From a virus: a DNA stretch of 64,000 nt. Of the stretch, positions 39,188 through 61,734 are shown one piece after another (the first letter of the stretch is position 1; each line of letters begins with the position of its first letter). The DNA is taken from positions 1 through 64,000 of IMG/VR virus record IMGVR_UViG_3300021425_000023; one strand, written 5' to 3'. The notes below the pieces were generated by a model. That model was not told where the DNA came from. It searched no databases and saw nothing but the letters and a program-made list of their open reading frames with translations. Both the position numbers and the translations under genes were made by a program.

Positions 39188-39208
39188 TTATATTATGAGG
39201 ACCTAGTG

Positions 39209-42200
39209 ATGTCAACAACTGATAGACAGAATAGATTACTAGTTGCAGAAGACTGGAAACGTATCTATCAAAGCTTTAGAAATGCAGACTTTTTGTCTTA
39301 TGACTTCGACAACTTACGTCGAACAATGATAACTTATCTAAGAACAAATTATCCAGAAGACTTTAACGATTATATTGAATCTAGTGAATATATTGCACTG
39401 GTAGATTTAATTGCGTATCTTGGGCAAGCATTCTCTTTCAGAACAGATCTTAATGCTAGAGAAAACTTTCTTGAAACAGCAGAAAGAAGAGAAAGTGTAC
39501 TTAGGTTAGCAAGATTGCTAAGTTATCACGCAAAGCGTAATCAAGCATTAAACGGTTTACTTAAATTACAAAGCGTTGCAACAACTGAAAATATATTAGA
39601 TTCTAGTGGGTTAAATTTGTCAGGTGTTAATGTAACATGGAACGACCTTACAAACACTAATTCAGACGAGCAAATAACAAAAATTTTAAATGCTGCACTT
39701 CCTGTAAATGTAGGCATAGGCAACCCTATTGCAAAAGATACAATTGGCGGTGTATATACAGAACAATATAGGTTTAATTCAAACAATGACGGATTAGCAT
39801 TATTTCCTTTTACAAGAAATGTAAATGGTGTAAACACTAAATTTGAAGTTGTAAGCACAAAAATAGAAAATAGTGCAGTAACAGAAGAAGATCCATACCC
39901 AGGAAACAAGTTTAGTATCATTTATAAAGATGATGGTAAAGGAAAAGCTAGTGATAACTCAGGTTATTTTGTGCATTTTAGACAAGGCCAGCTTGTAGAT
40001 GGTACATTTAATCTTACAAATCCTACAACCAATCAAGTAGTCGCAATTGATGAAATAAACATTAACGAAACAGACGTATGGCTATATTCCCTTGATGAAA
40101 ATAACATAGAAAATGAACTTTGGACCAAAGTGAGTGCTACTGAGGGCAATAATGTAATTTACAATAGTTTAGAAAAAGGCGAAAAAAATATCTACAGTAT
40201 TTTAACACGTATTGAAGATAGGATTAGTCTAGTGTTTGGGGATGGCGTATTCGGAAATCTACCACAAGGTAGTTTTAAAATTTACTATAGAATAAGTGAA
40301 TCAGCTACAACTTTAGTTCAGCCTAATGCTTTAGGGACTGTGGTTGTTTCGTTGCCATACCTTAGTCATACAAATACAGCTGAAACATTAACACTTACTT
40401 TTAAACTCCAAAATACAATTGAAAATGGTGCTGTATCTGAGACAAATGAAAACATAAAAAATAATGCTCCGAGTAACTATTACACTCAAAACAGAATGAT
40501 AACAGCAGAAGATTATCAGATTGCGCCTTTAGTTCGCAATCAAGAAGTAGTAAAAGTAAAAAGTGTAAATCGAGTAAGCAGCGGAATCAGTAGATATTTT
40601 GATTTAATAGATAGCACAGGAAAATACAGCAAAACAAACTTATTTGGTGCTGATGGAATAATTTACAAGCAAGACTATACAAAGAAAACTAACTTTACTT
40701 TTGCAACAAAAACTGATATAGAAGGCGCTGTACAAAATACAATTATTCCTATATTAAGAGATTACAATTTACGCAATTTTTATTACAATGAGTATCCTGT
40801 GACAACAGTAGCAGGAAACAATTACATGTGGTCTAGTGTTACTAATGTTACTAATCAAAATACAGGTTATGTACAAGACACAAGTGGAGAAAACGTTACT
40901 TTAGGATCCTATAGTGATTCTTCTTTAAGTTTACTTGTGCCTAATTCATTAGTAAAATTTGTAGCTCCTGCTGGATATCACTTTATGCCAGATAACACAC
41001 TCATGGCAGGTGCAGCTGATCATTCAGGTTCAAAAAGTTATATTTGGTCAAAAATTATCAGTGTAGCTAATGACGGTACTGATGCTACAGCAACAGGCGA
41101 AGGTGCAGTAAAACTTACTGATAAAATTCCTTCTACTGCAAAATTAGATAGAGTTATTACAAAGTTAGCTACTAATATTTCAACGGATTTAGAAACACAA
41201 ATAATAGATCAGTGTTTTGCTAAGAATACTTTTGGATTAAGATATGATCAAACAAGCCAATCTTGGAAATTAATTACACTTGATAATCTTAACACTGTGT
41301 CTAATTTCTCTTTATCTCGTGCAGGTAACACTTCAAGCGAGCAAGCAGATTCTAGTTGGTTGTTACTGTTCGAAGCTGACGGCAACAAATATACTATTAC
41401 GTATAGAGCAAGCAAATTTGTTTTTGAAAGTCCCAACGAGATAAGATTTTTCTTTGATTCAACTGATAAGGTTTTCGAAAACGTATCTGGCAAAGTAGTG
41501 AAAGATAAGATATCAGTTTTAAGCATTAACACCCAACCTGATAGTTTATCACCTTTCACTGTTGATTATGACTGGGAAATAATTGCTAATGTGAGAGATT
41601 CTGATGGCTATGTAGACAGTAGTAAGATTGAAATAACATTTTTCGATAAAGATGAAGATGCTGTAGTTGATGATCCTGAATTATTTGACATAATTGTTGC
41701 TGAGGACACAAATGCGTCAGACAAATTAGTGTTTAGAAAAAAACAAGTTAACATAGACGGCACTGAAACTTATGTTTATTATGATAACACTGACAACACA
41801 ATTAGAGTTTTTGATAAAAAAGCAGATTTACAAGTGACTAGTGTGTATGATGACGGCCAGGTGTTTTACTTTATACAAGAAAATCTTTTCCAAGTGTTAA
41901 ACAAAGCAAGCGGTAATTTAATTACAACTGCTGATTATGCTGGAAACAAAGGAAGGGATAACCTAAAATTCCACTATGTGCACGCAGCTGATAAAGATAG
42001 AAGATTAGATCCTAGTGTAAGTAACATTATTGATGTGTATATGCTTACAGCAAATTATGATACGCAATTTAGATTGTATTTGCAAGATCAAGTGACTTTT
42101 CCTAAGCCGCCGAGTAGCGATCAATTATACATTAACTATAGTTCAGAACTTAATAAAATCAAATCAATTAGTGATGAAATAATATACCATCCTGTTAAGT

Positions 42201-42724
42201 ATAAAATATTATTTGGAAGTAAAGCTGACAGTAACTTGCAAGCAACATTTAAAATTGTTAAAAATCCAGAAGCTGTAATTAATGACAATGATTTAAAAAC
42301 TGAAGTGTTATCTGCTATAAACAGATTTTTTGCTTTAGAAAATTGGGATTTTGGAGATACATTCTATTTCTCAGAATTATCTGCATATATTTTACAAGAA
42401 CTTAGTCCTAACTTAGTTACATTTGTAGTGGTACCAAATAATGAAACAGATGTGTTTGGAAGCTTATTTGAAGTAAAAGCAGAATCAGACGAAATCTTTA
42501 TAAGCGGTGCAAGAGTAAACGACATAGCTATTATAGATGCTGTAACAGCATCTAAACTCAAAGCAAGCGGTTCGATTACTACTAGTACCACAAGTGTAAA
42601 TGCAGGAGTACAAAGCTCTGCATTAAGTACAACCGGCACCACATATACTAGTTCAACTAATACAACTTCAAGTAGCACTAGTTCTAGTAGTTCAAGCTCA
42701 AGCGGCGGAGGAAGCAGTTACTAA
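39209..42724 (+). CDS. 6: Baseplate wedge protein gp6
   Basis: This is an 1171-aa protein (T4 gp6 is 660 aa). It begins MSTTDRQNRLLVAEDWKRIYQSF; the ATG at 39209 is preferred to the GTG just before it because of the GAGG Shine-Dalgarno. The N-terminal SSEYIALVDLIAYLGQAFSFRTDLNARENFLETAERRESVLRLARLLSYHAKRN block and the YYTQNRMITAEDYQIAPL segment are typical of gp6/baseplate J proteins. The dimer forms the iris ring of the baseplate. The middle 400 residues are an insertion, and the C-terminus is a Ser/Thr/Gly-rich tail. Confidence 0.92.
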   Translation: MSTTDRQNRLLVAEDWKRIYQSFRNADFLSYDFDNLRRTMITYLRTNYPEDFNDYIESSEYIALVDLIAYLGQAFSFRTDLNARENFLETAERRESVLRLARLLSYHAKRNQALNGLLKLQSVATTENILDSSGLNLSGVNVTWNDLTNTNSDEQITKILNAALPVNVGIGNPIAKDTIGGVYTEQYRFNSNNDGLALFPFTRNVNGVNTKFEVVSTKIENSAVTEEDPYPGNKFSIIYKDDGKGKASDNSGYFVHFRQGQLVDGTFNLTNPTTNQVVAIDEININETDVWLYSLDENNIENELWTKVSATEGNNVIYNSLEKGEKNIYSILTRIEDRISLVFGDGVFGNLPQGSFKIYYRISESATTLVQPNALGTVVVSLPYLSHTNTAETLTLTFKLQNTIENGAVSETNENIKNNAPSNYYTQNRMITAEDYQIAPLVRNQEVVKVKSVNRVSSGISRYFDLIDSTGKYSKTNLFGADGIIYKQDYTKKTNFTFATKTDIEGAVQNTIIPILRDYNLRNFYYNEYPVTTVAGNNYMWSSVTNVTNQNTGYVQDTSGENVTLGSYSDSSLSLLVPNSLVKFVAPAGYHFMPDNTLMAGAADHSGSKSYIWSKIISVANDGTDATATGEGAVKLTDKIPSTAKLDRVITKLATNISTDLETQIIDQCFAKNTFGLRYDQTSQSWKLITLDNLNTVSNFSLSRAGNTSSEQADSSWLLLFEADGNKYTITYRASKFVFESPNEIRFFFDSTDKVFENVSGKVVKDKISVLSINTQPDSLSPFTVDYDWEIIANVRDSDGYVDSSKIEITFFDKDEDAVVDDPELFDIIVAEDTNASDKLVFRKKQVNIDGTETYVYYDNTDNTIRVFDKKADLQVTSVYDDGQVFYFIQENLFQVLNKASGNLITTADYAGNKGRDNLKFHYVHAADKDRRLDPSVSNIIDVYMLTANYDTQFRLYLQDQVTFPKPPSSDQLYINYSSELNKIKSISDEIIYHPVKYKILFGSKADSNLQATFKIVKNPEAVINDNDLKTEVLSAINRFFALENWDFGDTFYFSELSAYILQELSPNLVTFVVVPNNETDVFGSLFEVKAESDEIFISGARVNDIAIIDAVTASKLKASGSITTSTTSVNAGVQSSALSTTGTTYTSSTNTTSSSTSSSSSSSSGGGSSY

Positions 42725-45700
42725 TGGCTTACGATAATTTTCAAAATGAACCTAATCTTCCTAACAGAGGCAAGTCTAAACGCAAAAGCGAAAACCACTT
42801 ACCGAGAATTTTTAGAACACCATCTAATTCTAAATTTTTAGGTTCTACTCTTGACCAGCTAATACAGCCAGGAGTAGTTGGAAAACTAAACGGTTATGTT
42901 GGACGTAAAACATCGAAAGCGTATCAAAGCTCTGATATCTATATAGGTGATGTAAGTCAAGATAGAGAAAATTATCAACTTGAGCCTGCAAGTGTCATTA
43001 CAGACGATTTAGGTAATGTTTCTTTTTATAAAGATTACAATGACTATATGAATAGTTTGAGTAATTACAATAGATCAATACAAGATCATAGTACAGTTAA
43101 TGAACAGGAATTTTATGCATGGAATCCGTTTATTGATTGGGATAAATTTACTAATTTTAGAGAGTACTATTGGCTACCTTCCGGGCCTAGCACAGTTAGT
43201 ATTACTGGAAATAGTTTTGATGTAGAAAGCACATATACCGTTGAATTATCAGATAATTTAGATTCGTATAGTTATATTTTCACACCCGATGGACAAACTG
43301 CTAATCCTACCCTTACTTTATACAGAGGCGTAAAGTATAAGTTTGATGTAAATGTACCTAATTTTCCTATTACTTTTAGAACAAAATTAAGCGATTCGTC
43401 AGAATTTGACCTAGACAGTTCTACTATACTATTGTACGACGGGGTAGATATTCAAGGTTTAGAGACTGGAACAGTAACTCTTGAACTAAGCACAGCAGCA
43501 CCAGATAGTCTATGGTATGTTGCTGCTAATGACATCAATATGCATGGCAGAATAGAAGTAAAAGATATTTCAGACGCAACTGAAATTGACGTAGATGCAG
43601 AAATTGTAGGAAAAAAGACTTATACATCAGGAAACGGTATTGCTTTAAGCAACGGAATAAAGATTTCCTTTGCAGGAAACGTATTGCCTGCTTCTTATAG
43701 TAATAAAGAATACTATGTTGAAGGAGTAGGCACTGCTATCAAACTAATAGATGCAAACAGTTTAGATGTAGCAAGTGCTTTTACAAGTGAAGTTATTGAT
43801 GAATTTGATAGTGAAGAATTTGATAGCTTGCCGTTTAGTAAAGCTTTGGGATATGCAAAAGACAAAGACTATATTGTTATTAATAGAAGTGCAACTGACG
43901 GGAATCTGTGGGCTAGATATAACAAATGGTTTCATAAAAGTGTAATAGAAGCCAGTGCGCTGGCAAACAACTTGACTGCATCGTTAGATGCAACACAACA
44001 AGCAACTAGACCGATACTTGAATTTGAAGCGGGTGTTAGATTATACAATTACGGTACTGAAGCTAAAACACCAATTGATCTAGTAGATACTATAACAAAA
44101 GATGTTTTTAGTACTATCGAAGGAAGTTTAGGTTATAACATAGATGGCGTAGACTTAAGAGATGGCCATAGAATTTTGTTTACTAATGACAGTGACTCTT
44201 TAGTAAAAAATAGAATATTCAAAGTAAAATTTATCACTTATGATGGCACAGTAATAGATGATGCTAATGTAAGCGGCCAAAGGCAAATAACTCTTATTGA
44301 AGAATCTGACAGTATATCACTAGCTGACGAAACAGTTTTAGTTAAGCAAGGCACTACATATGGCGGAAAAACACTTCATTATAAAACAAACAAGTGGATT
44401 TTAGGACAGGAAAAAACCAAAGTCAATCAAAGTCCTTTGTTTGATTTGTTTGACACTAACGGTTATAGTTTTTCTGACACTGCAATTTATCCGTCAACAA
44501 CATTTGTGGGAAATAGTATATTTGCTTATAAACAAGGCACAGGTTTAAACGATACTGAATTAGGTTTTCCTTTAGCATATAGAAATATTACAAATGTAGG
44601 CGACATTGTATTTGAATCAAAACTTACAACAGATACATTCACATATGTTTCTAATGAAAACGTAATTACAGAAAAAGCTGTATCTGGCTTTTTACATCAT
44701 CACACCGACAGATCTACATTTAGTAACAAAACAGGATGGATTAAAGTTACAAGTAGTGATCAATATGTTATAAGACAATTTGTATTTGATAACACTTTTA
44801 AAAATATACTAATTGATCAATATGATAACAGTTGGGATTATGTAAACGATATGCAACTTATTGTTTACCGTAACAACAGCTTTCAAATTCGTGATGTAGA
44901 TTATACTGTAGAACAAGACGCTACAAATTTTGCAAAAATAGTTTTTGTAAAAAAACTGGTCAAAGACGATGTAGTTGTGTTAAAAACAAAAAGTTCTCAA
45001 GTTAAAAATCAAAATGGTTACTACGAGATTCCTTACTCTTTAGAAAGAAATCCAAGTAACAATCAGTTAGACGAATTTACCCTAGGCGAAGTAAATGATC
45101 ATGTTGCTACAATTATAGAAAACACTACAGGTTTTACCGGTATAAATCCTGGCACAAACAATCTGCGTGACCTTGGCAATGTGAGTATAAACGGTCGACG
45201 TTTTTTACAACATAGTGCACCTTTAAATCTTCCATTATATCATATCACTAATGACGAATCAAATATAATCAAAAGTATTAAATTTGCAAAAAATAGTTAC
45301 AGTAAATTTAAAAGGGAATTTATCAGTGTTGCTGAAACATTAGGTTTTCAAAGCGATACAAAAACCCACGTAGATAGAATATTACAAGAAATTTCAAAAT
45401 CACAAGCTGATACTGATTTATTTTATTTTAGTGATATGGTGCCGTACGGAGGCTTTATAAAAACTGATCATCCGATTGAAGATAGCGACGAGATATATTT
45501 TCCTTTAGGTGAAACCTTTGACAAATCAGTGCCTAGTTATCGTGCAGTAACAGTATACTTAAATGATACCCAGTTAGTTCATGGAAAAGATTATACATTT
45601 AACAGTGAAGGTTATGCTGTTGTTACTGCAACAAAGGCTCCTGATGATACAATTACAATATACGAATATGATAGTACAAAAGGAAATAGCATTGCACCTA

Positions 45701-48700
45701 CGCCTACAAAACTAGGACTGTATCCTGCCTATGAACCTAAAATATTTGTAGATACAACATATCAAACTGATACAAAAGTAATACAAGGACACGACGGCTC
45801 TATTATAGTAGCATATGATGATTATCGAGATGATTTATTACTTGAATTAGAAAAAAGAATCTATAATAATTTAAAAGTATCATACAACGAATCTGAATTT
45901 AATATTTTAGAAGTAAAGCCAAGCTATTACAGATCTACAAGCTTATCACGTGAAAGTATTGACAAATCTTTATTAGGAGATTTTTTCCAATGGACAAAGT
46001 TTGTAACAATAGACTATACATCGCAGACATTTTCAAGAGAAAATAGATTTAGTTACAATTATTCAGAAAGTTTTGACAGTAAGAATAATTCATTACCTGG
46101 TTTTTGGCGTGAAATATACAAGTATTATTACGATACTGATAGACCGCACACACATCCTTGGGAAATGCTAGGCGAAACAATTGAACCAACTTGGTGGCAG
46201 GATACGTATGGGGCAGCACCTTATACAAGTGATAACTTGTTGATGTGGGAAGATATCGAAGCAGGTATTGTGAAAACACCAGGACAAAGAATAGAATACA
46301 GATCAAATTACAAAAGATCAGGTCTTTCAAATATTATTCCTGTGGACGAACATGGTGACTTAGTGTCGCCTCTAGAAATAGGTCTTGTGTCTAACTATAA
46401 TTTTAATTTAATAGAAAGGCCTTGGGTGTTCGGTGACGGTGCACCTGTTGAAGCAGCATGGCGAAGATCAAGTGAATATCCATTTGCTGCGCTAGTTGCA
46501 TTTGCGTTAAACAAACCGTGTAAACTTTTCGGCACTGGGTTTGATAAGATAAATCAAGTTAGAAACTTAGCAGGAAATTTAATATACAAGCCTACTGGAC
46601 AACGTATAAGACTAGAAGATATTGTATTTCCTATGAGTAAATCAGATACAACTGATGTATTTACAAGTGGTGTAATAAATTATATTGCTGAATATGTAAA
46701 AAGCAACGTTGAATCTACATATACAGATTATAAAAATAATGTACAGTCTTTAACAAATCAACTTGGTTTCAAGTTAGCTGGATTTACTGATAAGACCAAG
46801 TTAAAATTAATTTTAGATAGCAGAACGCCACTTAACAAAGGCAATGTCTTTGTGCCTGAAGAAAATTACAAAATTATAATAAACGAAAGTTCGCCAGTAG
46901 AACTTTTAAATTACAGCGGCGTTATTATAGAAAAAATTGCAGAAGGCTTTCTAATAAAAGGTTATAGCTCTAATAGAAGCTACTTTTTAACTTATCCTAT
47001 ACTTTCAAGAAAAAGTGACTTTGCAATAAATGTAGGCGGAGTAAGCGAACCTTTTGTAGAATGGGTAAGTGGAAACTTTTACACTGCTGGCACAATAGTA
47101 AGAAACAACAGTGCATTTTATAGGTGTTCAAAAGATAATAAAGAAACAGAATTTTCTGAAGTAAACTTTTCACCACTTGCAGAGCTTCCTATAGAAGGAG
47201 GGCGTGATGCAATAATTTCAACTCAGTTTAACAAAAGCAAAGTAGTTGAAGTTCCTTACGGTACACTGTTTACAGAAATACAAGATGTAGTAGATTTCTT
47301 ACTAGGTTATGAAGCATATTTGTTGTCTAAAGGATTTGTTTTTGACTTTTTTGATAATACAATTAACAAAGTTTTAGATTGGAAACATTCTATACAAGAA
47401 TTTTTGTTTTGGACATTATACAATCTAGATTCGGGTGCAGCTATTTCGTTAAGCCCTAGTGCATCTTATCTACAGCTAGCAAGTAATAGCACTATTGTAA
47501 GTAACATATTAACAGGTCCTAACGATTATACATTATTGCAAGCAGACGGATCATATTTAGACATAGAAAACACTACATTGAGTAGACTTGATAACGACTT
47601 TGTAATGTTTATAAATCCAGACGTTACAGGTCAGGGTGTGTTTTATGTTGAGCTGCCTATGACTCAAACTGAACATGTTGTGTTATTAGATAATGAAACA
47701 GTGTTTAATGATATTATCTATGATAAAACACCAGGTTATAGACAAGAAAGAATAAAATTATTAGGTTATAGAACAGAAGAATGGACAGGTAGTACAAACA
47801 TTCCTGGCTTTATTTACAGTGATGCTACTGCTGCTGAATGGAAACAAAATGTGCCTTATGATATTGGCACTCTTGTAAAGCATAAACAGTTTTATTATGT
47901 AGCAGATGTAAAAGTTGCACCGTCAACTGTGTTTAACGATGCAGAATGGATTAAATTATCAGAACAACCTAGACAGGGACTTTTCCCTAACTTTGAATAT
48001 AAAACAAATCAGTTTACTGATTTTTATGATTTAGATAGTGACAATCTTGATACTGAACAACAAAGATTTGCACAGCATTTAATCGGATATCAAAAAAGAG
48101 ACTATTTAGAAAATATTATTAATAATAGTGTTAGTCAGTACAAATTTTATCAAGGTATGATTTTAGAAAAAGGCACGTCTAACGCTCTTTCTAAATTGTT
48201 TGATGTTCTTGCAAGCAGCGACAAAGATAGTTTAGAATTTTATGAAGAATGGGCCATACGAGACGGACAATATGGTGGAGTAGACATTTTCGACGAATTT
48301 GAAGCTCCTATTGACGAATCAAAAATACTTGCAAATCCGCAGCCTATTTTATTAACAAATCAAAGTTCTGAATTTACAAGTGATGTTGTATATAGACTCA
48401 AGCCGTTTGAAGTTAGTGTTCCTACAAAAAATTACGATAACAATCCTTTCCCTACAAAGGTAGTTGTAGATACATTTACAAATTCACCAGGTTATGTTCA
48501 CAAAGAAGATGTGGTTAAAATTGTAGATACTATGGACGATCTTGTAGGAACAAAAATCAAAACTGTACGCCGCAATGAATTTGTATGGGCAGGAAAAGAA
48601 GGTTTATCATGGAGTGTAAATCGCCATATAAGAGCAGACGTTGATATTGCTAGTATAAATGTCGGAAGTACAATAAAAATTACTACAAATAACTTAATAA

Positions 48701-51700
48701 AAGATATTGAAAAAGATGATATTGTAGGTATTCACTCAGTATATGGTATAAGTTCACAAGCAGAATTATTAGAAGACAGCAGCAAACTTCAAACTACTAT
48801 TAAAAAGTTTTCTGAGTTTGATTTTTTTGCAAAAGTTGTATCTGTTGAAAACGCTATATTAGAATTAGAAATACCCGAAGCATCAAGAGATGCAGTGGGT
48901 TCTCTTACTGGAGCTATATCTAACGCAGAGTTAACAAGATTTGAACCTGCTAGATTTGCAAATACAGCCGATGCTAACACAGCAATGCAAAATTATTTTC
49001 AACCTAATACTAAATTATGGATTGATAAAATTGGTACAAATTCAGAATGGAAAGTGTTAACAAACGATAATTTATACACCGAAGCTGAGATTTTTGATGG
49101 TCCTAGTACGGCAGACGATAGTTCATTTACAAAGTCTTCAACATTTGCTACAGCAATAACCGCTAATAATTCTGGAAATGTTTTATGTGTTGGAGATCCT
49201 AACAGTCTAAACGGTATAGTTTATGTTTATAGAAGAGCAGGCAAAAATAAAAAATGGGTTTTCAACCAGTATCTTACTCCTGCTGATTATGCTGCCGACG
49301 GCCAAGCTTTTGGTTCTTCTATAGAACTATCTGAAGATGGGCAATGGTTAATTGTAGGTTCTCCAAAAGCATCTAATGTAAAATCTAAATTTAAAAATGC
49401 TTTCTCTAACACCACAACCTATGCAAAAAATGAAATTGTATCCTATAAAAATAGGCTATGGAGAGCAAAGTTTGATCTGTTGTACAGTTCAGCTGGAGTA
49501 AATTTTAATACTTTCTCGAGCACTGTACAAAATATATACGCTCTAGAAAACCAAACCAATTCCAATGCCGATGTGCCTGTAATATATGTAGGTAATTATT
49601 CTATTCCATCCGGCACTGCTACAGCACCGTTTACAGACACTGTAAATCATATACTGGTTAGGGCACCTAAAACACTTTACGATAACACAATTACAGAAGA
49701 TAGCACCGGCAATTGGGAAATTAAACTAGACTGGAATACTCTATCTTACGGCTACCAAGATGTTTTACTTCCAACGGCTACTCAGCCATTTAATGGCAAC
49801 TATAGTGTTTTAAATGAATCATTTTTTGATGGTACTCATGCAATACGTAGAAGCATAGATACAGTAATTTACTTTGACTCATTAACAGTAGTACCAGAAT
49901 TAGGCGAAACTGTACAAACTGATACAGGCACAGCTGAGATTGATTATGTACATAGTAACACTGACGGAAAATATGTAGTATATCTGCGTAGTAAAACTGG
50001 ATCATTTAACTCAACTGATTCACTATACAGAGTATCAGGAGAGTATATTGGTGACTTTGAAAAACAAGCTGATGCTGACGGCACTGTGTACGGTGGGTTT
50101 TGGTGGATAGATACACCCGATTATACACCAGCATATTCTAGTACATTATCCGACCAAGGCCGAGGTCTTGTATATGTTGACATGGCAAATGATAGTACTT
50201 TTGGTAATACATATCACAACATTCTAGATAATAATACTACTGTTATAGATAGCGAAAACAACAAAAATAGCTACATCAGGGTTTTAACAAGTGAGGGCTT
50301 CCCTAACGCAAATAATGCTAACGGCACAATATTAGACAGTAGGTATGTAGTGCGTGCTCCAAAAGCACTTACAGATACGTTAAGTGTTTCTGATACAGTT
50401 AATTTATATGTAAATCAATTACCAAATTACTCTGCAGGTTTGCAAAAAGACATTACTGATATAGGGTTAACTACAGCTGATACTAACAAAGAAGTATCTG
50501 TTGCAGGACTTTGGGACGGTTATATTGGACTAAGATTTACTAAATTCCAAACTAACGGACAGCCATATATACCACAAGTTGGCCAGACTGTAAGGGATAA
50601 AAGAACTGGCGCTACTGCAAAAGTTCAATTCATTCAAAGAAATTATCTAGATGCTACACTTTTTGTTAGTGATGTGACTGGTGCGTGGAGTAAAGGCGAA
50701 AGTTATAGTGATTTATCTGAAATTGAATTTTTAGCAATATCCGGAGGCTCTGGTATCTATCAAGTGGATAGAGAAATAGGCGATATACAGCATGTATCTG
50801 TAGGCAGTGCTACTATAGGTAAATTAATAGTTGTAGATACTGGAACTGACATAAGTCTTCCTACTCAGCAAATTTTAGAAGGTGCTGAATATTGGTTCTA
50901 CACCAACAGACAAGTTCTAGGTGATCCTAGAGCACAAGAAGCACCTAGCATTAGTAATAGCGATTGGGAAGTAGTGTATAATATACCTGTTGACACTGCC
51001 GGAACTGCAAGTTCATTCACTAATCAAGGTGTGTATTCTGTTTATAAAAATGACGGAACTGCATTTAGTGAATATGGATCTTATATAGTGCAAGATGCAC
51101 AGACAGATTCAAATTTAGGCGCCAATGTAAAAATACGTAAAAAAGGTGACACTTATAAAGCTTTTGTTCAAGCTGCTGGAAATGGCACAGCCGCACTGCC
51201 TGGTAAAATTTACTTCTTTAACAAAGGCATATATGAGACTGTTAGTTATGATTGGGAATCATCTAAGTTTAAATCTTATAAAGGACCATTCGATGAATCA
51301 TTAGCATACAGACAGGGAGATATTGTATTTGTAAGTGAAGATAGAGATGCGTTATACGAAGCAAGACTAAACATAGTTGCTGGTACTGCATTTAGTTTAG
51401 ACAACTGGACTAAAAAATCTGATTACGTGGATTATGTAGGATTTATTCCTAACAACACAAATATTGTTGTTATAAATGACAGTACAGATTTTTCAAGCGT
51501 GTTAGATAATGATAATGTAGAAACTTTTGGAGATGAGTTTGATGTTTCAAAAGATGGCGCAGTAGTTGTTTCTAAAGTTACTTATGAAAACAAGCCGTCT
51601 ACTGTTGTGGTGTATAGAAATGTTGATGAAAATTATCAACACAGCCAGATTGTGATTGCAGGTGACGAGTCTAGTGCGATTAATGAGTGGAAAACTGCAA

Positions 51701-54700
51701 TAAGTAGCGATGGTATGTTTATAGCTATCAGTAAGCCGCTTGAAGACATATATCAGTCCAACGAAGGCCAAGTGTTTATATATAAGCAAGTAAATGGAGA
51801 GTTTACTTTAGATCATACTTTAGAAAATTCTAATTATAAAAATGGTGAGCAGTTTGGGTATAACATCGACTTTGATGGCAATAGATTATTAGTCAGTGCA
51901 AAAAACAGCGACGCAGTTACTCCAACAATTTTCGATAATAGTCAAACATATTTTGATTCTGGGTTTACTAATTTTTCATACACAAATGAATTCCAAGGAA
52001 TTGTGTATGTGTATGAAAATGTTGATAATGAATATTTGCTAGCTCAAAAGCTTAATGCAAAAGATCAAAATTTGCGTGATTTTGGCAAGCATGTTTTGCT
52101 TAAAAACAATGATATTTTTATAGGCATACCAATAAAACCACAAACTTATACTGGTACAAATATTGGCGAAGTGTATAACTTTAAAATTACAGATTCTAGC
52201 AAAAACATGTGGCGTACACTTCGTGAAATACAATCTACTGTAGATCTAGAAAAAATCAAAGAAGTTTATCTATATAACACAAAAACAAATACACGAATAG
52301 CAAATCTTGATTATATTGATATTAATCAAGGAAAAATATCAGGACTTGCTGATCAAGAAATTAATTATAAAACTAATGATGATCCGGCTGTGTATTCTGT
52401 AGGATTAGATACGGACAACGTAGACGTAAACAATACTTGGGGTTCTGAACAAGTAGGACAGGTCTGGTGGGATCTGACAAATGCAAAGTTTTATAATCCT
52501 TATCAATCAGAAATTATTTACAGTGCACAAACATGGAACACAGCGTTTGGTTCTAGTAGTGTAGATGTTTATGAATGGATTGAAAGTCCATATCTTCCAT
52601 CTAAATACAACGAATTATCAAAAGCTGGGAATGCAGAAGCTATTAGAAATGGAATTACAGGAACAGCTAAAACAGAATCTACTTACGTATCGAGAAAAGT
52701 TTATGATACAATAGCAAAAACATTTTCTAACAAGTACTATTACTGGGTAAAAGATAAGACAACAATTCCAGTTCAGTCTGATAGAAACTTCAGTGTAAAA
52801 GCTATTAGTAGTTACATTGCTGATCCAAACAACAATGGTGTAGAATCTATATCATTTTTATCAGCTGACAGATTTGTTCTTAATAACGTTAACAAATATC
52901 TCAGCGCAAAAGACGTATCTCTGAATGTACAATTTTATAACCAAGAGAATACTGATGTAAATGTACATACTCAATATAAAATTATATCAGAAAATTTAGA
53001 AACAAGTCAACCAACTGATGATGTAATTACTAAATGGTTTGACAGTTTAATAGGTTATGATAGTAACTTACTACCTGTGCCTGATACTTCTATACCAACA
53101 AAATATAGATATGGTAACTTGTCAAAGCCACGTCAGTCTTGGTTTGTTAACAGACTCGAAGCTTTGAAGCAAGTTGTAGAAAGAATAAACCTTGTACTCA
53201 AAGATACACTAATTGTTGATAGTAAAACTTTAACTCCGTTGTTTGATACTGATCCAGCGCCAGCTGCATCATCTAATTTGTATGACGAGTCTGTAGATGA
53301 TTTAGAAGATTTAGCTGATATACAAACAGAAAAACTTATCCCTGCAATTTTAACACCGGTAGTAGAAAACGGTAAAATTACAAAAGTAGAAATCACCAAT
53401 CCAGGGCGTGGATACAAAAATGCACCGCCGGTTATTGTGTATGGTAAAGGCAGCGATGCAGAAGTAAATGTTACAGTTGATTCGCTAGGACGTGTTAGAA
53501 CTGCAACAGTGGTAAAACAAGGAACAAATTATCTAAGTGATACAATACTAACAATTAGAAAATACGCAGTTCTTGTAAAAAATGATTCCACTATTAGTAA
53601 TAAATGGGCAATTTATGAAAGAGATGGCGAATCTTGGATAAGAAAAAGCAAACAAAAATATGATACAACTCTTTACTGGAATTATATCGATTGGTATGCT
53701 GCAGGATTTAATGCGAACACTAGGATAGATCATATTGTAAGTAATAGTCATGGTCTTATAAATGCCAACATAAACAGAAATGAAATAGTTAAAATACAAA
53801 ATGTAGGCTCAGGCGGCTGGCTTTTATTGAAGAGAAAAGATGTTACCAACAGCTTAGATTACACTATTGATTATGATACAATCGGACGTGAAAAAGGAAC
53901 AATTGAATTTGGTTCTAATCTTTATGAACCACCTTCGTTTGGTTTCGATAGTAATAGTTTTGATATTAAGTTTTATGACTTTTTACCAGTATACGAATTA
54001 AGAACAATTCTAAGTGCAATTAAAGATAATATATTTGTTAATGATTTATTACTGGAGTTTAACAGATTATTCTTTGCTAGCCTTAGATATGTGTTAAGTG
54101 AACAAACAAATACCGACTGGCTTTTCAAAACAAGTTTTGTTAAAGCAAAACACAATGTAGGACAGCTACGACAAGACATCACATTTAACAACGATAATCT
54201 TGCAGACTATGAAGAATACATAAAAGAAGTTAAGCCGTTCAAAAGTAAAATAAGGGAATATTTAAGTTCATATGAAAGATTAGAACCTACAAATAGCTTT
54301 GTGACAGATTTTGACTTGACACCTGTGTACGACGCCCAAGATGGAAAATTAATTCATGCAGATACTAAAATTGTTGATAATGAAATAACAGTTTTAGATG
54401 AAATAATTGAAAATTATCCAAATAAGCATTGGGCTAATAACAATGGTTATGAAGTAACCGCTGTACATATTAATAATGCAGGATCTAAGTACAGAACTGC
54501 ACCTGTTGTTAAGTTGTCCGGAGGCGGAGGCACAGGCGCAGAAATCAAAACATATGTCGGAACAAGCGGAAAGATAACCAAGGTAGAAATTGTTAACCCT
54601 GGTAGTGGATATACCAGTGCACCTAGCATAGAATTACTTCACAATATCGAAGAAGGTGGTACAAATGGAGAAATAAGTTTAGAAATCGGCAATGGATTAG

Positions 54701-57681
54701 TTCGTTCGACAAAAACTGCTATGAAGTTTGATAGAACAGCAGGATCATTTACAATTACAGATATAAATGTAGAGGAAACATTTACTAGTAGCGGTAGTAA
54801 GTTTGAGTACGATTTAAAGTGGCCAATTGTACTAACTAGAGATAAAATTAGTGTTAAAGCAAATGGTATTGAACTAGGCAAAAGTGAATATAGTTTTTCA
54901 AATGTTGTTGACACTTCTAAATCTTATAAAAGATCTAAGGGTAGAATTACAACTACAAGTGCATTATCTAACGGTACAATAGTTACCATAGCATACGAAA
55001 AGTCTTTGGATATTTTAAATGCAGCAGATCGAATTAATGCATACTATACTCCTGCTACTGGTCAATTAGGCAAAGACTTAACACAACTTATGGTTGGTGT
55101 AGACTACGGCGGAGTAGAAGTAAAAGGAGTAGGCTTTGAAACAATACAAGGATGGGACAACGATGCTTGGTATACTTCAGAATGGGATGCATATACAGAT
55201 ACTAACGAAGACGAAGTTTTCCAGTTTGATGAATCAACGGTAGAAATTAATCTGTCAAAGCCATTAGAGTTAGGCACCAGCTATAATGTATACTTAAATC
55301 AAGTTAGAATTGATGATCCTAATTACGATGGAAGTACTGCAATTGACAATCCTAATGCTATCATGCGCACACTAGTCGGCGACGGTGTAACAACCACAAT
55401 GTACCTAGATGATTTTAAGCTTCAGACAATACAAAGTGATGGAAACAATACTGGTGCAGTAATAAATTATGATACAAGTGATAAACTAATCATAAGAAAG
55501 AGTTCTAGTGATGGCACTTATGCATTAAATCCAAACACAATTGATACACAATTGTCAGGCGGTAATCTTGCTTATGGAAATGCTAGAGGTATTTCGTCTG
55601 AAGATATAACTATAGATGGTGATAATTTTGTATCACACATAACAAGCGGAAGTGTAGAAGAACACGTTCCGGGACAAGTACTAGACACACTTAACATCAA
55701 AGTGTATGAAAGACCATCGGGTAGTAACAGCAATATTACTAGCAATATTTTTTACGGCAACGGTACAACAACAGATTTTACAATTGATGCTAATTTGTAT
55801 GAAATTACTCAAGTTATAGTGAGTGTTGACGGTAATTTACAGCGTTTAACATCTGATTACACTGTTGATGTAGATACAAAGACTGTACAATTTGTAACTG
55901 CGCCCGCGGCTAGAAGTGTAATTAGAATTAACGACTTTGGACTTGCAGGATCTAACATAATAGAAAGTGATACATTTACAAGCGACGGAAGTACGCTCAA
56001 TATATTAACTGGAGTAAGTCATGAGGACGATCTTCAGAGTGTTGCTAGAGTAGACGGCGCAGACATAGATCATGAGATTGTTAACCAAGACGGTCGTGCA
56101 GTAATTAGTTTAGCAGAAGCTGCTGTGTTCAATGACGTAGTACAGTATGCTATCTTTAAGCCTGCAGATACAAGCAATTACAGTAAGATAATCATAGAGA
56201 ACATTACAGCAGATGGTAGTTCTGTAAGCTATGATCTATCAAATAAACCTGCTGTAAAAAATCCTTTAGAATGGAATACAGTAGTCATAGCAGGCAACAC
56301 TTTACTTGACCCAGGCTATGCACAAAAGTTTACAATGGACGATTCAACAAGATCATTTGTGTTAAACAACTCACAAATAGATTTAAACAATATTCCTGGA
56401 TATAGTCTTTATGTAGTAGCTGATGATTCTGTATTGGAATTTAATAAAGATTATACATGGACACCAGAAACTGGTACTATACATTTAAGTGCTGTGTTTG
56501 ATCTAACAGGTAAGCAGACACTAGAAGTATATACAAGACATAATGCAGATTATACATTTGGAACTTTTGACACTGGAAACGATTTTGGTATTGATTCAGA
56601 TACAATTACATTTACGTCTACGTATAGTGAAAGCACATTGTTAAAAGTTATTACATTTGCGAATCACGATCATAGAAACATCAATAGACAGCGTATTACA
56701 GTCAAGGATAGAAGCGGTGTTGATACTACTTCGAATGACTATAATGTTTTAACAAATATACAACGTGGCCGTATACTGCTAGATACCGCAGTTGTAGATG
56801 CACAGTATGTTTGGGTTAGCAAAAACGGGCAGCTACTTACTCCTAATGGTGACTACAGCATCAATGCTACCGGAAGTAGTATCGAACTTGCAAGTCAGCC
56901 TAGTTTAAATGATGAGTTTTTAGTGGTGCATTTTGCAGCAGACCCTTTGCGTGATACTTTTGGCTGGCAGCAATTTAAAGATATTTTGAATAGAACTCAT
57001 TATCAAAGTTTAGATTCTAGCAAAGCTTTTAAATTAAGTAATGATTTAAAGTGGTACGACAAAAAGATTGTGCTAGATGATGCAAGTGCTTTGTCTGAGC
57101 CAGACGCAGATGGTACACCGGGCGTTATTTGGATAGACGGCGAACGAATTGAGTATTTTGTTAAAGCAGATAACGAATTATCGCAGTTGAGACGTGGCAC
57201 TTTGGGTACTGGAGTTAAAGGTATATACAGTGCAGGCACATCTGGTATTGAAGTTTCGGGAGCAAATAATGTTCCTTATAAAGACGAGTTGTATACTACT
57301 GTATATACTGGCGACGGAACAGCTGACGAGTTTGTGCTTGACTTTACTCCAAGTAGTAGTAACGAATTTGAAGTATTTGTTGGTGGTAAAAGACTCCGCA
57401 AAAATAGTATATCCTCTTATAGATTTGAATACACTGACGGTAATGGAACTGTAGTAGATAGTATTGCAATGGATTCTCCAGAAGGTGATGTAACATTGCC
57501 TGCAGAGTTTTCTTACAGTGGTACAACATTAACATTAGCAAGCGTGCCTGCTGACAGTGTAAAAGTAGTAGTAATTAGAAAGAAAGGTTTGACCTGGAGT
57601 GACGCAGGTAAAACATTGTCAGAAAGCCAAACTGATATTGCTAAGTTCCTTCGATCGACAACAGTTGATTTACCCAGATAA
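42724..57681 (+). CDS. Giant 4985-aa baseplate/tail protein in the gp7 position
   Basis: This is a single uninterrupted frame of 14,958 bases. The N-terminal 160 residues (LPRIFRTPSNSKFLGSTLDQLIQPG, YAWNPFIDWDKFTNFREYYWLPSGP) appear conserved in marine T4-like giant tail proteins. I see CBM5/12-like W-Y-G-D-V-Y modules near residues 1445, 1705, 2225 and 2855. FG-GAP-like propeller blades lie near 2142, 2193, 2936, 2989, 3041 and 3118. Two GYxxAPxV repeat domains lie near 3560 and 3920, and a series of GDGT...DYTV domains runs from about 4250 to the end. It starts on the gp6 TAATG. Its position suggests the gp7 wedge fused to receptor-contact modules, but homology to T4 gp7 is not evident. Confidence 0.85.
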   Translation: MAYDNFQNEPNLPNRGKSKRKSENHLPRIFRTPSNSKFLGSTLDQLIQPGVVGKLNGYVGRKTSKAYQSSDIYIGDVSQDRENYQLEPASVITDDLGNVSFYKDYNDYMNSLSNYNRSIQDHSTVNEQEFYAWNPFIDWDKFTNFREYYWLPSGPSTVSITGNSFDVESTYTVELSDNLDSYSYIFTPDGQTANPTLTLYRGVKYKFDVNVPNFPITFRTKLSDSSEFDLDSSTILLYDGVDIQGLETGTVTLELSTAAPDSLWYVAANDINMHGRIEVKDISDATEIDVDAEIVGKKTYTSGNGIALSNGIKISFAGNVLPASYSNKEYYVEGVGTAIKLIDANSLDVASAFTSEVIDEFDSEEFDSLPFSKALGYAKDKDYIVINRSATDGNLWARYNKWFHKSVIEASALANNLTASLDATQQATRPILEFEAGVRLYNYGTEAKTPIDLVDTITKDVFSTIEGSLGYNIDGVDLRDGHRILFTNDSDSLVKNRIFKVKFITYDGTVIDDANVSGQRQITLIEESDSISLADETVLVKQGTTYGGKTLHYKTNKWILGQEKTKVNQSPLFDLFDTNGYSFSDTAIYPSTTFVGNSIFAYKQGTGLNDTELGFPLAYRNITNVGDIVFESKLTTDTFTYVSNENVITEKAVSGFLHHHTDRSTFSNKTGWIKVTSSDQYVIRQFVFDNTFKNILIDQYDNSWDYVNDMQLIVYRNNSFQIRDVDYTVEQDATNFAKIVFVKKLVKDDVVVLKTKSSQVKNQNGYYEIPYSLERNPSNNQLDEFTLGEVNDHVATIIENTTGFTGINPGTNNLRDLGNVSINGRRFLQHSAPLNLPLYHITNDESNIIKSIKFAKNSYSKFKREFISVAETLGFQSDTKTHVDRILQEISKSQADTDLFYFSDMVPYGGFIKTDHPIEDSDEIYFPLGETFDKSVPSYRAVTVYLNDTQLVHGKDYTFNSEGYAVVTATKAPDDTITIYEYDSTKGNSIAPTPTKLGLYPAYEPKIFVDTTYQTDTKVIQGHDGSIIVAYDDYRDDLLLELEKRIYNNLKVSYNESEFNILEVKPSYYRSTSLSRESIDKSLLGDFFQWTKFVTIDYTSQTFSRENRFSYNYSESFDSKNNSLPGFWREIYKYYYDTDRPHTHPWEMLGETIEPTWWQDTYGAAPYTSDNLLMWEDIEAGIVKTPGQRIEYRSNYKRSGLSNIIPVDEHGDLVSPLEIGLVSNYNFNLIERPWVFGDGAPVEAAWRRSSEYPFAALVAFALNKPCKLFGTGFDKINQVRNLAGNLIYKPTGQRIRLEDIVFPMSKSDTTDVFTSGVINYIAEYVKSNVESTYTDYKNNVQSLTNQLGFKLAGFTDKTKLKLILDSRTPLNKGNVFVPEENYKIIINESSPVELLNYSGVIIEKIAEGFLIKGYSSNRSYFLTYPILSRKSDFAINVGGVSEPFVEWVSGNFYTAGTIVRNNSAFYRCSKDNKETEFSEVNFSPLAELPIEGGRDAIISTQFNKSKVVEVPYGTLFTEIQDVVDFLLGYEAYLLSKGFVFDFFDNTINKVLDWKHSIQEFLFWTLYNLDSGAAISLSPSASYLQLASNSTIVSNILTGPNDYTLLQADGSYLDIENTTLSRLDNDFVMFINPDVTGQGVFYVELPMTQTEHVVLLDNETVFNDIIYDKTPGYRQERIKLLGYRTEEWTGSTNIPGFIYSDATAAEWKQNVPYDIGTLVKHKQFYYVADVKVAPSTVFNDAEWIKLSEQPRQGLFPNFEYKTNQFTDFYDLDSDNLDTEQQRFAQHLIGYQKRDYLENIINNSVSQYKFYQGMILEKGTSNALSKLFDVLASSDKDSLEFYEEWAIRDGQYGGVDIFDEFEAPIDESKILANPQPILLTNQSSEFTSDVVYRLKPFEVSVPTKNYDNNPFPTKVVVDTFTNSPGYVHKEDVVKIVDTMDDLVGTKIKTVRRNEFVWAGKEGLSWSVNRHIRADVDIASINVGSTIKITTNNLIKDIEKDDIVGIHSVYGISSQAELLEDSSKLQTTIKKFSEFDFFAKVVSVENAILELEIPEASRDAVGSLTGAISNAELTRFEPARFANTADANTAMQNYFQPNTKLWIDKIGTNSEWKVLTNDNLYTEAEIFDGPSTADDSSFTKSSTFATAITANNSGNVLCVGDPNSLNGIVYVYRRAGKNKKWVFNQYLTPADYAADGQAFGSSIELSEDGQWLIVGSPKASNVKSKFKNAFSNTTTYAKNEIVSYKNRLWRAKFDLLYSSAGVNFNTFSSTVQNIYALENQTNSNADVPVIYVGNYSIPSGTATAPFTDTVNHILVRAPKTLYDNTITEDSTGNWEIKLDWNTLSYGYQDVLLPTATQPFNGNYSVLNESFFDGTHAIRRSIDTVIYFDSLTVVPELGETVQTDTGTAEIDYVHSNTDGKYVVYLRSKTGSFNSTDSLYRVSGEYIGDFEKQADADGTVYGGFWWIDTPDYTPAYSSTLSDQGRGLVYVDMANDSTFGNTYHNILDNNTTVIDSENNKNSYIRVLTSEGFPNANNANGTILDSRYVVRAPKALTDTLSVSDTVNLYVNQLPNYSAGLQKDITDIGLTTADTNKEVSVAGLWDGYIGLRFTKFQTNGQPYIPQVGQTVRDKRTGATAKVQFIQRNYLDATLFVSDVTGAWSKGESYSDLSEIEFLAISGGSGIYQVDREIGDIQHVSVGSATIGKLIVVDTGTDISLPTQQILEGAEYWFYTNRQVLGDPRAQEAPSISNSDWEVVYNIPVDTAGTASSFTNQGVYSVYKNDGTAFSEYGSYIVQDAQTDSNLGANVKIRKKGDTYKAFVQAAGNGTAALPGKIYFFNKGIYETVSYDWESSKFKSYKGPFDESLAYRQGDIVFVSEDRDALYEARLNIVAGTAFSLDNWTKKSDYVDYVGFIPNNTNIVVINDSTDFSSVLDNDNVETFGDEFDVSKDGAVVVSKVTYENKPSTVVVYRNVDENYQHSQIVIAGDESSAINEWKTAISSDGMFIAISKPLEDIYQSNEGQVFIYKQVNGEFTLDHTLENSNYKNGEQFGYNIDFDGNRLLVSAKNSDAVTPTIFDNSQTYFDSGFTNFSYTNEFQGIVYVYENVDNEYLLAQKLNAKDQNLRDFGKHVLLKNNDIFIGIPIKPQTYTGTNIGEVYNFKITDSSKNMWRTLREIQSTVDLEKIKEVYLYNTKTNTRIANLDYIDINQGKISGLADQEINYKTNDDPAVYSVGLDTDNVDVNNTWGSEQVGQVWWDLTNAKFYNPYQSEIIYSAQTWNTAFGSSSVDVYEWIESPYLPSKYNELSKAGNAEAIRNGITGTAKTESTYVSRKVYDTIAKTFSNKYYYWVKDKTTIPVQSDRNFSVKAISSYIADPNNNGVESISFLSADRFVLNNVNKYLSAKDVSLNVQFYNQENTDVNVHTQYKIISENLETSQPTDDVITKWFDSLIGYDSNLLPVPDTSIPTKYRYGNLSKPRQSWFVNRLEALKQVVERINLVLKDTLIVDSKTLTPLFDTDPAPAASSNLYDESVDDLEDLADIQTEKLIPAILTPVVENGKITKVEITNPGRGYKNAPPVIVYGKGSDAEVNVTVDSLGRVRTATVVKQGTNYLSDTILTIRKYAVLVKNDSTISNKWAIYERDGESWIRKSKQKYDTTLYWNYIDWYAAGFNANTRIDHIVSNSHGLINANINRNEIVKIQNVGSGGWLLLKRKDVTNSLDYTIDYDTIGREKGTIEFGSNLYEPPSFGFDSNSFDIKFYDFLPVYELRTILSAIKDNIFVNDLLLEFNRLFFASLRYVLSEQTNTDWLFKTSFVKAKHNVGQLRQDITFNNDNLADYEEYIKEVKPFKSKIREYLSSYERLEPTNSFVTDFDLTPVYDAQDGKLIHADTKIVDNEITVLDEIIENYPNKHWANNNGYEVTAVHINNAGSKYRTAPVVKLSGGGGTGAEIKTYVGTSGKITKVEIVNPGSGYTSAPSIELLHNIEEGGTNGEISLEIGNGLVRSTKTAMKFDRTAGSFTITDINVEETFTSSGSKFEYDLKWPIVLTRDKISVKANGIELGKSEYSFSNVVDTSKSYKRSKGRITTTSALSNGTIVTIAYEKSLDILNAADRINAYYTPATGQLGKDLTQLMVGVDYGGVEVKGVGFETIQGWDNDAWYTSEWDAYTDTNEDEVFQFDESTVEINLSKPLELGTSYNVYLNQVRIDDPNYDGSTAIDNPNAIMRTLVGDGVTTTMYLDDFKLQTIQSDGNNTGAVINYDTSDKLIIRKSSSDGTYALNPNTIDTQLSGGNLAYGNARGISSEDITIDGDNFVSHITSGSVEEHVPGQVLDTLNIKVYERPSGSNSNITSNIFYGNGTTTDFTIDANLYEITQVIVSVDGNLQRLTSDYTVDVDTKTVQFVTAPAARSVIRINDFGLAGSNIIESDTFTSDGSTLNILTGVSHEDDLQSVARVDGADIDHEIVNQDGRAVISLAEAAVFNDVVQYAIFKPADTSNYSKIIIENITADGSSVSYDLSNKPAVKNPLEWNTVVIAGNTLLDPGYAQKFTMDDSTRSFVLNNSQIDLNNIPGYSLYVVADDSVLEFNKDYTWTPETGTIHLSAVFDLTGKQTLEVYTRHNADYTFGTFDTGNDFGIDSDTITFTSTYSESTLLKVITFANHDHRNINRQRITVKDRSGVDTTSNDYNVLTNIQRGRILLDTAVVDAQYVWVSKNGQLLTPNGDYSINATGSSIELASQPSLNDEFLVVHFAADPLRDTFGWQQFKDILNRTHYQSLDSSKAFKLSNDLKWYDKKIVLDDASALSEPDADGTPGVIWIDGERIEYFVKADNELSQLRRGTLGTGVKGIYSAGTSGIEVSGANNVPYKDELYTTVYTGDGTADEFVLDFTPSSSNEFEVFVGGKRLRKNSISSYRFEYTDGNGTVVDSIAMDSPEGDVTLPAEFSYSGTTLTLASVPADSVKVVVIRKKGLTWSDAGKTLSESQTDIAKFLRSTTVDLPR

Positions 57682-60377: not shown

Positions 60378-61708
60378 TGGCCTATAGAATTAACAAAACA
60401 GACGGTAGTATACTTACTGACTTAAATGACGGAGTAGTGGATACAACTACAACTGATATCACACTTATAGGAAAAAACTACTCCGGGTTCGGCGAGGCAT
60501 TAAACGAAAATCTAGTAAAAATGCTAGAAAACTTTTCGTCAACATCAGCGCCTGAAAATGCTCTAAAAGGTCAACTCTGGTATGATGCTGCTCAAAATAG
60601 GCTAAAAGTTTATGATGGCGAAACATTTGTAAGCGCCAACGGTACTATAGTTGGAACTGTAGCAACCAACGTAGATACTGGTGATATCTTTATTGATACA
60701 GGCACTGATCAGCTAAAATTTTATAATGGCACAAGTTATGTTGTAGTTGGGCCTACATATACTAAGACACAAGGAAAAACAGGCACCGAAGGTATTGATA
60801 TAGTAGATACTGTAGGAGTTCAAAGGACAGTATTAGGCCAATATATAGCAGGAGTTTTGAAAGGTATTTGGAGTAGTGTTGAATTCACACCAAATACAGC
60901 TACAACACCCACAGGATGGACTGCCGGCACTGTAATTAAAATAGGTTTTAATCCAGTTGATACTGTAAATTACAACTACAGAGGTACATCAAATGGCACT
61001 AATAGTTTAACAGACAGTTTAGGAAATAGCTTTACTCCTAGTTCTTTTGTAAAAGTAGAAGAACGTAATTCATTAAATGCCTTAGTAGATCAACGTATCG
61101 AGTCTGGCTTATTTGTAAAAGGAACATCAGGACTTAGCGTAGGATATCAAGACGCTACGTATGCAACTTTACGTGTTGACTCATCTGGTACAGAAATATC
61201 TGTGATAGATATAGAACGTCAAAATAGTGATTTTGCTATAAGAACTACAGAAGGTAGTTCTAAAATAAATGCAATAAAAATCGACTCTAGTGAAAGACGA
61301 ATAGGTATATTCACAGATACTCCTAGTACAGCTTTAGATGTAACCGGCGATGTTACAGTTAGTGGAACAGTATATGCAAATCAAATTGATACTACTGACA
61401 GTACAGAAGTAGTTATAAATCCTTTTGTAAGAATGTACTCTAGTGCAGCAGTAGCTGGTACACTAAGCGTGACTAACATAGATTCAGAAGATAGTTCTGA
61501 AATTACTATTGACCCACCTGTAAAACTACTATCCGATTTAACTGTAGAAAATGGATCTGTAGCTGGAAGTATTCGAATTACCAATACTTCAACGCCAGGA
61601 AGTGCTACTGATCCCGGGCAGACAGGTGAGATTAGATGGGATAGCAATTACATTTATGTTTGCATAGCTACAGACACGTGGAAAAGAGTTGCTATTAGCA
61701 CCTGGTAA
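60377..61708 (+). CDS. Tail fibre protein, paralogue 2
   Basis: This is a 443-aa protein. The N-terminal 135 residues are homologous to those of the flanking fibre genes (LIGKNYSGFGEALNENLVKMLENFSS, GQLWYDAAQNRLKVYDG). The body is beta-helical, with VTVSGTVYANQIDTTDSTEV-type repeats. The C-terminus (STPGSATDPGQTGEIRWDSNYIYVCIATDTWKRVAISTW) is a known fibre-tip ending that differs from the collar ending of its neighbour. So the attachment domain is conserved while the tips vary. Confidence 0.82.
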   Translation: MAYRINKTDGSILTDLNDGVVDTTTTDITLIGKNYSGFGEALNENLVKMLENFSSTSAPENALKGQLWYDAAQNRLKVYDGETFVSANGTIVGTVATNVDTGDIFIDTGTDQLKFYNGTSYVVVGPTYTKTQGKTGTEGIDIVDTVGVQRTVLGQYIAGVLKGIWSSVEFTPNTATTPTGWTAGTVIKIGFNPVDTVNYNYRGTSNGTNSLTDSLGNSFTPSSFVKVEERNSLNALVDQRIESGLFVKGTSGLSVGYQDATYATLRVDSSGTEISVIDIERQNSDFAIRTTEGSSKINAIKIDSSERRIGIFTDTPSTALDVTGDVTVSGTVYANQIDTTDSTEVVINPFVRMYSSAAVAGTLSVTNIDSEDSSEITIDPPVKLLSDLTVENGSVAGSIRITNTSTPGSATDPGQTGEIRWDSNYIYVCIATDTWKRVAISTW

Positions 61709-61726
61709 AGATAATTAAGCCATACG

Positions 61727-61734
61727 GATAAATA
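61727..61734 (+). promoter_or_regulatory. T4-type late promoter (GATAAATA)
   Basis: GATAAATA lies 25 bases before the third fibre gene, in the 51-base gap after paralogue 2. Confidence 0.7.

Follow-up and report, generated by a model that had tools for sequence, protein, structure and literature searches.

A seven-bladed integrin-alpha-type propeller, split by an insertion, in a giant phage protein encoded beside baseplate wedge genes

The stretch of DNA analyzed here (the window, 64,000 nucleotides) is part of a 72,467-base virus record and contains one giant open reading frame (ORF) next to baseplate wedge genes. A first-pass annotation had proposed that this ORF encodes a baseplate protein in which one beta-propeller is interrupted by about 720 residues of other modules. 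The locus therefore raises the question of whether the two groups of FG-GAP blades belong to a single propeller, and what such a protein would do in the virion. The gene order was gp25-like, gp6-like and then, as the third gene, the giant ORF.

38660–39160, forward strand: gp25-like baseplate wedge gene (PF04965, E = 2e-8; phrog_261, E = 1.7e-17)
39206–42724, forward strand: gp6-like baseplate wedge gene, 1172 aa (phrog_10646, E = 5e-293; phrog_219, E = 3e-23)
42724–57681, forward strand: giant virion-structural ORF, 4985 aa, 558 kDa (phrog_10938 'virion structural protein', E = 0)
55753–55998, forward strand: stretch of the giant ORF resembling the T7 tail-fibre N-terminal domain, residues 4344–4425 (PF03906, E = 1.1e-5)

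The giant ORF starts with ATG and is a single intact frame with zero internal stops. Its initial base is the final base of the gp6-like ORF, giving a 1-base overlap. Genes for tail-fibre/collar-like proteins are located 3' of it at 58320–63253, and a Collar-domain protein is encoded two genes 3' of the giant ORF. On the opposite strand, 5' of the structural block, positions 29174–33646 carry SbcC-like, SbcD-like and late sigma factor genes.

A very long ORF in a metagenome-derived record could point to misassembly or an annotation artefact. The same region was present in two further IMG/VR contigs (L001 and L002) with 100% identity across the matched part and in a third (L013) with 60% identity, and this recurrence shows that it is not an assembly artefact. 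The arrangement was repeated in about 30 more divergent contigs, and isolate orthologues have 3323–4555 aa. The artefact explanation is thus refuted and has practically no probability left, and the 4985-aa frame of the first-pass annotation stands as described. A scan of IMG/VR with the single whole protein returned near-identical contigs only, and a nucleotide search of a phage collection with the middle 4 kb of the ORF gave no match.

The window protein is a member of PHROG 10938, the RaK2-type giant virion proteins, with which it shares a homologous core and the gene position. Two conserved parts flank the propeller region.

42724–48393, forward strand: conserved N-terminal part, residues 1–1890, common to RaK2, 121Q, PA5oct, SCTP-2, Atu_ph07, Phosso and Vibrio 2.275.O
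52204–53223, forward strand: conserved part resuming 3' of the propeller, residues ~3161–3500 (alignment with isolates)

In the isolate alignment, conservation extended to about residue 1890 and resumed at about 3160–3195, and the N-terminal part included a PWEM(L/F)G signature near residue 1145. The orthologues have 3326 aa in RaK2, 3323 in 121Q, 3771 in Vibrio 2.275.O, 3807 in SCTP-2, 3857 in PA5oct (gp355), 4449 in Atu_ph07 (gp180) and 4555 in Phosso. The giant gene lies immediately 3' of the gp6-like gene in RaK2, 121Q, PA5oct, Atu_ph07 and Phosso, as in the window. What separates the two conserved parts is entirely different from phage to phage: RaK2 and 121Q have about 230 aa there and PA5oct about 320, Atu_ph07 and Phosso have about 1530 aa of a different sequence, and the window protein has about 1270 aa including the propeller. 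Because the five isolates compared for gene position lack the propeller at this site, it is dispensable for the core function.

The record of PA5oct gp355 bears an ESI-MS/MS note, and phAPEC6 gp245 (381.88 kDa), located beside the wedge protein gp244, was detected in the virion by mass spectrometry (PMC7247149). The calculated mass of 121Q gp582 is 381.87 kDa, matching gp245. Published mass spectrometry places these two orthologues in the virion, which gives good reason to call the family virion-structural; the window protein is known here from its sequence.

Three candidates were rejected during the family comparison. A forced global alignment hinted at a propeller in the wedge proteins of Atu_ph07 and Phosso, which was ruled out by reading the sequences and by zero propeller-HMM matches. 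A LamG-like domain was suspected by eye at the propeller site of SCTP-2, and Pfam gave no support for it. The cyanophage contig L099 (3230–21574; Synechococcus phage S-MS29 18229–36573) encodes a 6114-aa protein immediately 3' of a baseplate wedge gene. Its strong matches to the family were only short and recurrent, and a convincing core match was absent.

The first-pass annotation had also compared the protein with the T4 wedge protein gp7. The position beside wedge genes agrees with this, and the profile comparison does not: when eight segments were aligned by hhalign to six gp7 sequences, the probabilities were at most 0.3%, while a control (V09 gp7 versus the others) gave 100%. No segment showed a profile match to T4 gp7, and the likeness is one of gene position and size. 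Profile searches recognised no gp8 directly 3' of the giant ORF. By analogy of position, the giant protein may take the place that gp7 has in T4 while being a different protein.

The propeller and its insertions were resolved into the following parts.

49012–52227, forward strand: split seven-bladed FG-GAP (integrin-alpha-type) propeller with its insertions, residues ~2097–3168 (AF2 strands, relatives, Foldseek)
49141–49299, forward strand: blade 1, residues 2140–2192 (blade HMM, AF2)
49300–49380, forward strand: blade 2 strands 1–2, residues 2193–2219, FGSSIELSEDGQWLIVGSP (Pfam, blade HMM, AF2)
51013–51111, forward strand: blade 2 strands 3–4, residues 2764–2796 (relatives' alignment, AF2)
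51112–51264, forward strand: blade 3, residues 2797–2847 (relatives' alignment, AF2)
51517–51672, forward strand: blade 4, residues 2932–2983 (relatives' alignment, AF2)
51673–51837, forward strand: blade 5, residues 2984–3038 (blade HMM, AF2)
51838–52068, forward strand: blade 6, residues 3039–3115 (blade HMM, AF2)
52069–52233, forward strand: blade 7, residues 3116–3170 (blade HMM, weak at 2.2 bits; AF2)

Pfam FG-GAP_2 matched residues 2178–2218 above the cut-off (E = 4.5e-7), and 34 of 36 alignment members matched the same family at E ≤ 0.1. A blade HMM, built solely from relatives with the window protein excluded, matched residues 2141–2186, 2195–2237, 2992–3035, 3042–3110 and 3120–3172 (iE 5e-13 to 0.011). 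In 200 shuffles of the region the top domain reached 5.5 bits, which surpasses only the 3120–3172 match. The blade HMM left blade 4 undetected and detected blades 3 and 7 weakly. When the window sequence was read directly, the FG pair was found in blades 2, 4, 6 and 7, GxP in blades 1, 2 and 7, and the glycine preceding strand 3 in six of the seven blades. The D.[DN].DG pattern was absent from the window propeller and from the corresponding regions of all relatives except L067.

The blades noted at first near residues 2142 and 2193 and at 2936–3118 were recovered by AF2 and, apart from blade 4, by the blade HMM. The original count of six segments has to be raised to seven blades, since the second half of blade 2 (2764–2796) and blade 3 (2797–2847) had been missed. 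The interruption is correspondingly shorter than the proposed 720 residues, a figure that reflected the spacing of the blades then visible: blade 2 is interrupted between strands 2 and 3 by 555 residues (2214–2768), about 480 of which are removable.

In the window alone, about 720 residues do separate the recognisable blades, and the region could be taken as two structures, a short FG-GAP pair near 2142–2218 and an unrelated or second propeller at 2936–3118. Relatives with seven contiguous blades align over both halves, and a 530-state HMM built from them covered both halves, in order, in the relatives spanning the region. Together with the AF2 strand pattern, this makes two structures very improbable.

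AF2 alignments had 36–40 rows, with 36 for the window. The model of window residues 2090–3200 (mean pLDDT 84.2, pTM 0.62) showed four-stranded blades flanking the insertion on both sides, that is, one propeller and not two folds. Its four-stranded units were 2144–2184, 2199–2213 joined with 2769–2788, 2798–2846, 2932–2977, 2990–3033, 3044–3110 and 3123–3168. Foldseek matches of this model in the PDB were mostly propeller proteins (integrins, DDB1, SF3b), with a target TM of only 0.30–0.39 against integrin propellers; the 555 residues are probably too long a gap for a local alignment to span. In light of this low TM, the uninterrupted relative L056 was also modelled (pLDDT 85.1, pTM 0.83). The best 50 PDB matches listed for L056 were all integrin alpha subunits, and against the propeller-only alpha5 entries 9dia and 9ef2 it reached a target TM of 0.63 (rmsd 5.6–5.8, E ~1e-10). 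By sequence profile, integrins alpha-4, alpha-L and alpha-6 were matched weakly (E 5e-4 to 2e-3). The integrin-alpha propeller has seven blades of four antiparallel strands each (PMC3192720), and the AF2 strand lists of both the window region and L056 contain seven four-stranded blades. From the uninterrupted relative and from homology, we infer that the ring of the split propeller would close. Uninterrupted relatives, AF2 models and PDB comparison thus agree with the initial proposal of one propeller split by an insertion.

The material inserted into the propeller comprised two modules and one larger segment.

49390–49506, forward strand: CBM5/12-like module a, N-terminal part, residues 2223–2261, in the blade 2 strand 2–3 loop (iE 4e-9)
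49507–50946, forward strand: ~480-aa insertion, residues 2262–2741, absent from L028, L029, L033, L044, L045 and L057
50947–50994, forward strand: CBM5/12-like module a, C-terminal end, residues 2742–2757, SDWEVV (aligns with the contiguous module end in L029 and L057)
51277–51417, forward strand: CBM5/12-like module b, residues 2852–2898, in the loop between blades 3 and 4 (iE 1e-9)

The CBM5/12-like units anticipated within the interruption were confirmed by module a in the blade 2 loop, for which the Pfam CBM_5_12 match on residues 2226–2247 (22.1 bits) was under the 26.2 cut-off. Matches were stronger in relatives, down to E 9.5e-14, and 28 of 36 alignment members matched at E ≤ 0.1. The C-terminal end of module a is too short for an HMM match of its own. 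Sugar binding by CBM5/12 domains uses exposed aromatics, such as the WW pair of chitin-binding members; neither of the two window modules, nor the consensus of the group, has two adjacent aromatics after its W/Y-x-A motif. With one of the modules itself interrupted, sugar binding is no more than a tentative suggestion.

The boundaries of the removable insertion were given by six relatives (L028, L029, L033, L044, L045 and L057), which align up to residue 2258–2265 and resume at 2742–2745, either directly or after a few extra residues. The removable part is therefore about 480 aa (2262–2741). AF2 modelled it confidently as beta-rich, and no relatives of it were found in Pfam, PHROGs or PDB sequences. 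Nine further relatives (L066, L068, L070, L088, L074, L056, L084, L090 and L092, of which L070 and L088 are near-copies of L068) have a minimal propeller with no module in the blade 2 loop.

Relatives were collected from IMG/VR with the conserved segment 760–1250 (alignment A1); at least 592 were found, and 80 were kept and examined. All kept relatives with an ORF spanning the region carried the propeller. Among 65 relatives spanning the region, the blade 2 loop insert was absent in 11 (including L063 and L089, with spurious or multi-piece spans), 41–57 aa long with the CBM5/12-like module only in 17, intermediate in three and about 500–800 aa long in 34. Spurious or multi-piece HMM matches distort some of the lengths measured for L063, L069 and L089. 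On the core-region tree, the large insertion needed 3 changes compared to a shuffled mean of 21, and it was absent from the outer propeller-bearing branches. This distribution is compatible with one gain and two losses inside the starred 41-row clade; given several weakly resolved forks and the long branches of the isolate outgroups, the tree supports this order of events rather than proving it. The relatives would fit nested additions, in which a propeller entered the wedge protein, a CBM5/12-like module entered the propeller and about 480 aa entered the module, with a second module added after blade 3. Natural intermediates exist for nearly all steps, from proteins that have no propeller, through a bare propeller and one with a module, to a module that carries the insertion, and this makes domain insertion directly readable in this family.

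The positions of the inserts were compared across the same 65 relatives. Inserts of at least 20 aa occurred at HMM states 88, 128, 248/266 and 408, exclusively in strand 4-1 or strand 2-3 loops. Counting inserts down to 15 aa, 12 relatives had one between blades 1 and 2, 54 in the strand 2-3 loop of blade 2, 13 and 40 at two neighbouring states between blades 3 and 4, and eight in the strand 2-3 loop of blade 6. The sole insert of at least 15 aa in a strand 1-2 loop had 17 aa. These counts are phylogenetically non-independent, so it is safer to rely on how many separate sites there are, namely about five, which all belong to the same face. The strand 4-1 and 2-3 loops share one face of a propeller, which in integrins is the ligand-binding face. 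The insertion-bearing face thus corresponds to the one from which the I domain of integrins emerges, and it is a likely site of host or fibre contact.

Two other insertions were observed. In L089 (residues ~2585–3622 of its giant ORF) the corresponding propeller has a further split, of about 1040 aa, between blades 4 and 5. L028, L045 and L057 have an insertion of about 85 aa between blades 1 and 2, which probably explains the Pfam E1_FCCH match in three members (E 1.4e-4).

The adjacency to gp6 and gp25, the presence of orthologues in virions and the combination of a conserved core with a variable head together point to a wedge protein whose contact surface would be exposed and quick to change. 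Most likely the propeller protein is attached to the wedge and serves, in an exposed position, as an adhesin or a docking platform. We favour, with a probability of roughly 0.6, a wedge-associated protein of the RaK2/PA5oct/Atu_ph07 kind with a closed seven-bladed integrin-alpha-type propeller, whose projecting head contacts host surface polymers. The conserved parts would anchor the chain in the wedge, and the propeller and its outgrowths would project from the baseplate, with one face as a hot spot for added modules. The projecting propeller would most likely make the first or a secondary contact with host surface polymers, possibly sugars, and the extra ~480 residues probably enlarge the surface touching the host bacterium.

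The main rival to host-polymer contact is fibre docking, in which the propeller and its outgrowths hold fibres or the Collar-domain protein instead of binding a receptor, and the insertions would co-evolve with the fibres. T4 gp7 has domains for binding gp8, gp10 and the long-tail-fibre socket gp9 (PMC3004832), tail-fibre/collar-like genes follow the giant ORF, and RaK2, which has very different fibres, lacks the propeller. However, CBM5/12-like modules and widely variable insert lengths on one face would suit a changing contact surface better than a conserved socket, and we regard docking as less likely.

A sub-case compatible with host-polymer contact is that the ~480-aa segment, like the integrin I domain, is the functional receptor-binding module and the propeller a passive holder. 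The segment lies near the I-domain position between blades 2 and 3 (PMC12422189), is predicted to be ordered, and occurs in 34 of 65 relatives, with losses elsewhere. However, searches of Pfam, PHROGs and PDB sequences found no functionally characterised homologue, some relatives have the propeller but dispense with the segment, and by interrupting a CBM5/12-like module it could just as well have put that module out of action. This version is possible, though less likely than not.

In contact with host polymers, the head may tentatively be seen as an integrin-like adhesion head that a phage lineage evolved independently, with ligand-side loops repeatedly gaining whole domains and so recognising or switching host surfaces; the idea is speculative. 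If true, the gains of the CBM5/12-like modules, the ~480 aa and the ~1040 aa in L089 would parallel the I-domain insertion of animals. Giant structural proteins of jumbo phages are usually labelled 'hypothetical' or 'virion structural'; in the present one, a variable head can be told apart from a conserved core associated with the wedge.

Compared to known systems, the window protein resembles T4 gp7 (1032 aa) as a single very large protein encoded directly 3' of gp6. It differs in having no detectable profile similarity and in being 4.8 times longer (4985/1032), in line with the 'almost five times' stated initially. The giant proteins of RaK2, 121Q, PA5oct, Atu_ph07 and Phosso have the same gene position, a homologous N-terminus of about 1890 aa and the part from about residue 3160 onward, but unlike the window protein they have no FG-GAP propeller between these parts.

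FG-GAP propellers of giant algal viruses, uncultured Caudovirales, Atu_ph07 (A0A2L0UZX4) and Phosso (gene 108) have the same fold by Foldseek or Pfam, so the fold is not itself new in phage. None of these is known to form part of a wedge protein encoded beside gp6, and our literature search found no description of a propeller in this giant-protein family. In BFVD, the Atu_ph07 'hemagglutinin' A0A2L0UZX4 contains a propeller resembling this one (target TM 0.67); Atu_ph07 thus has a wedge protein without a propeller and a separate propeller protein, as if the module had moved between genes. Phosso gene 108 (L011, 57900–68978) is a separate hypothetical protein of about 3690 aa with at least 24 FG-GAP_2 repeats (E 4.8e-175), likely several propellers in a row.

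Unlike integrin alpha, the window propeller is without DxDxDG calcium-binding loops, and the FG, GAP and Cage residues occur in only part of its blades. Nine human alpha subunits carry the I domain between blades 2 and 3, after blade 2, whereas the window insertion separates strand 2 from strand 3 within blade 2 and is not a recognised vWFA domain. Like integrin alpha, the window protein has seven FG-GAP blades and a large domain inserted beside blade 2 on the same face.
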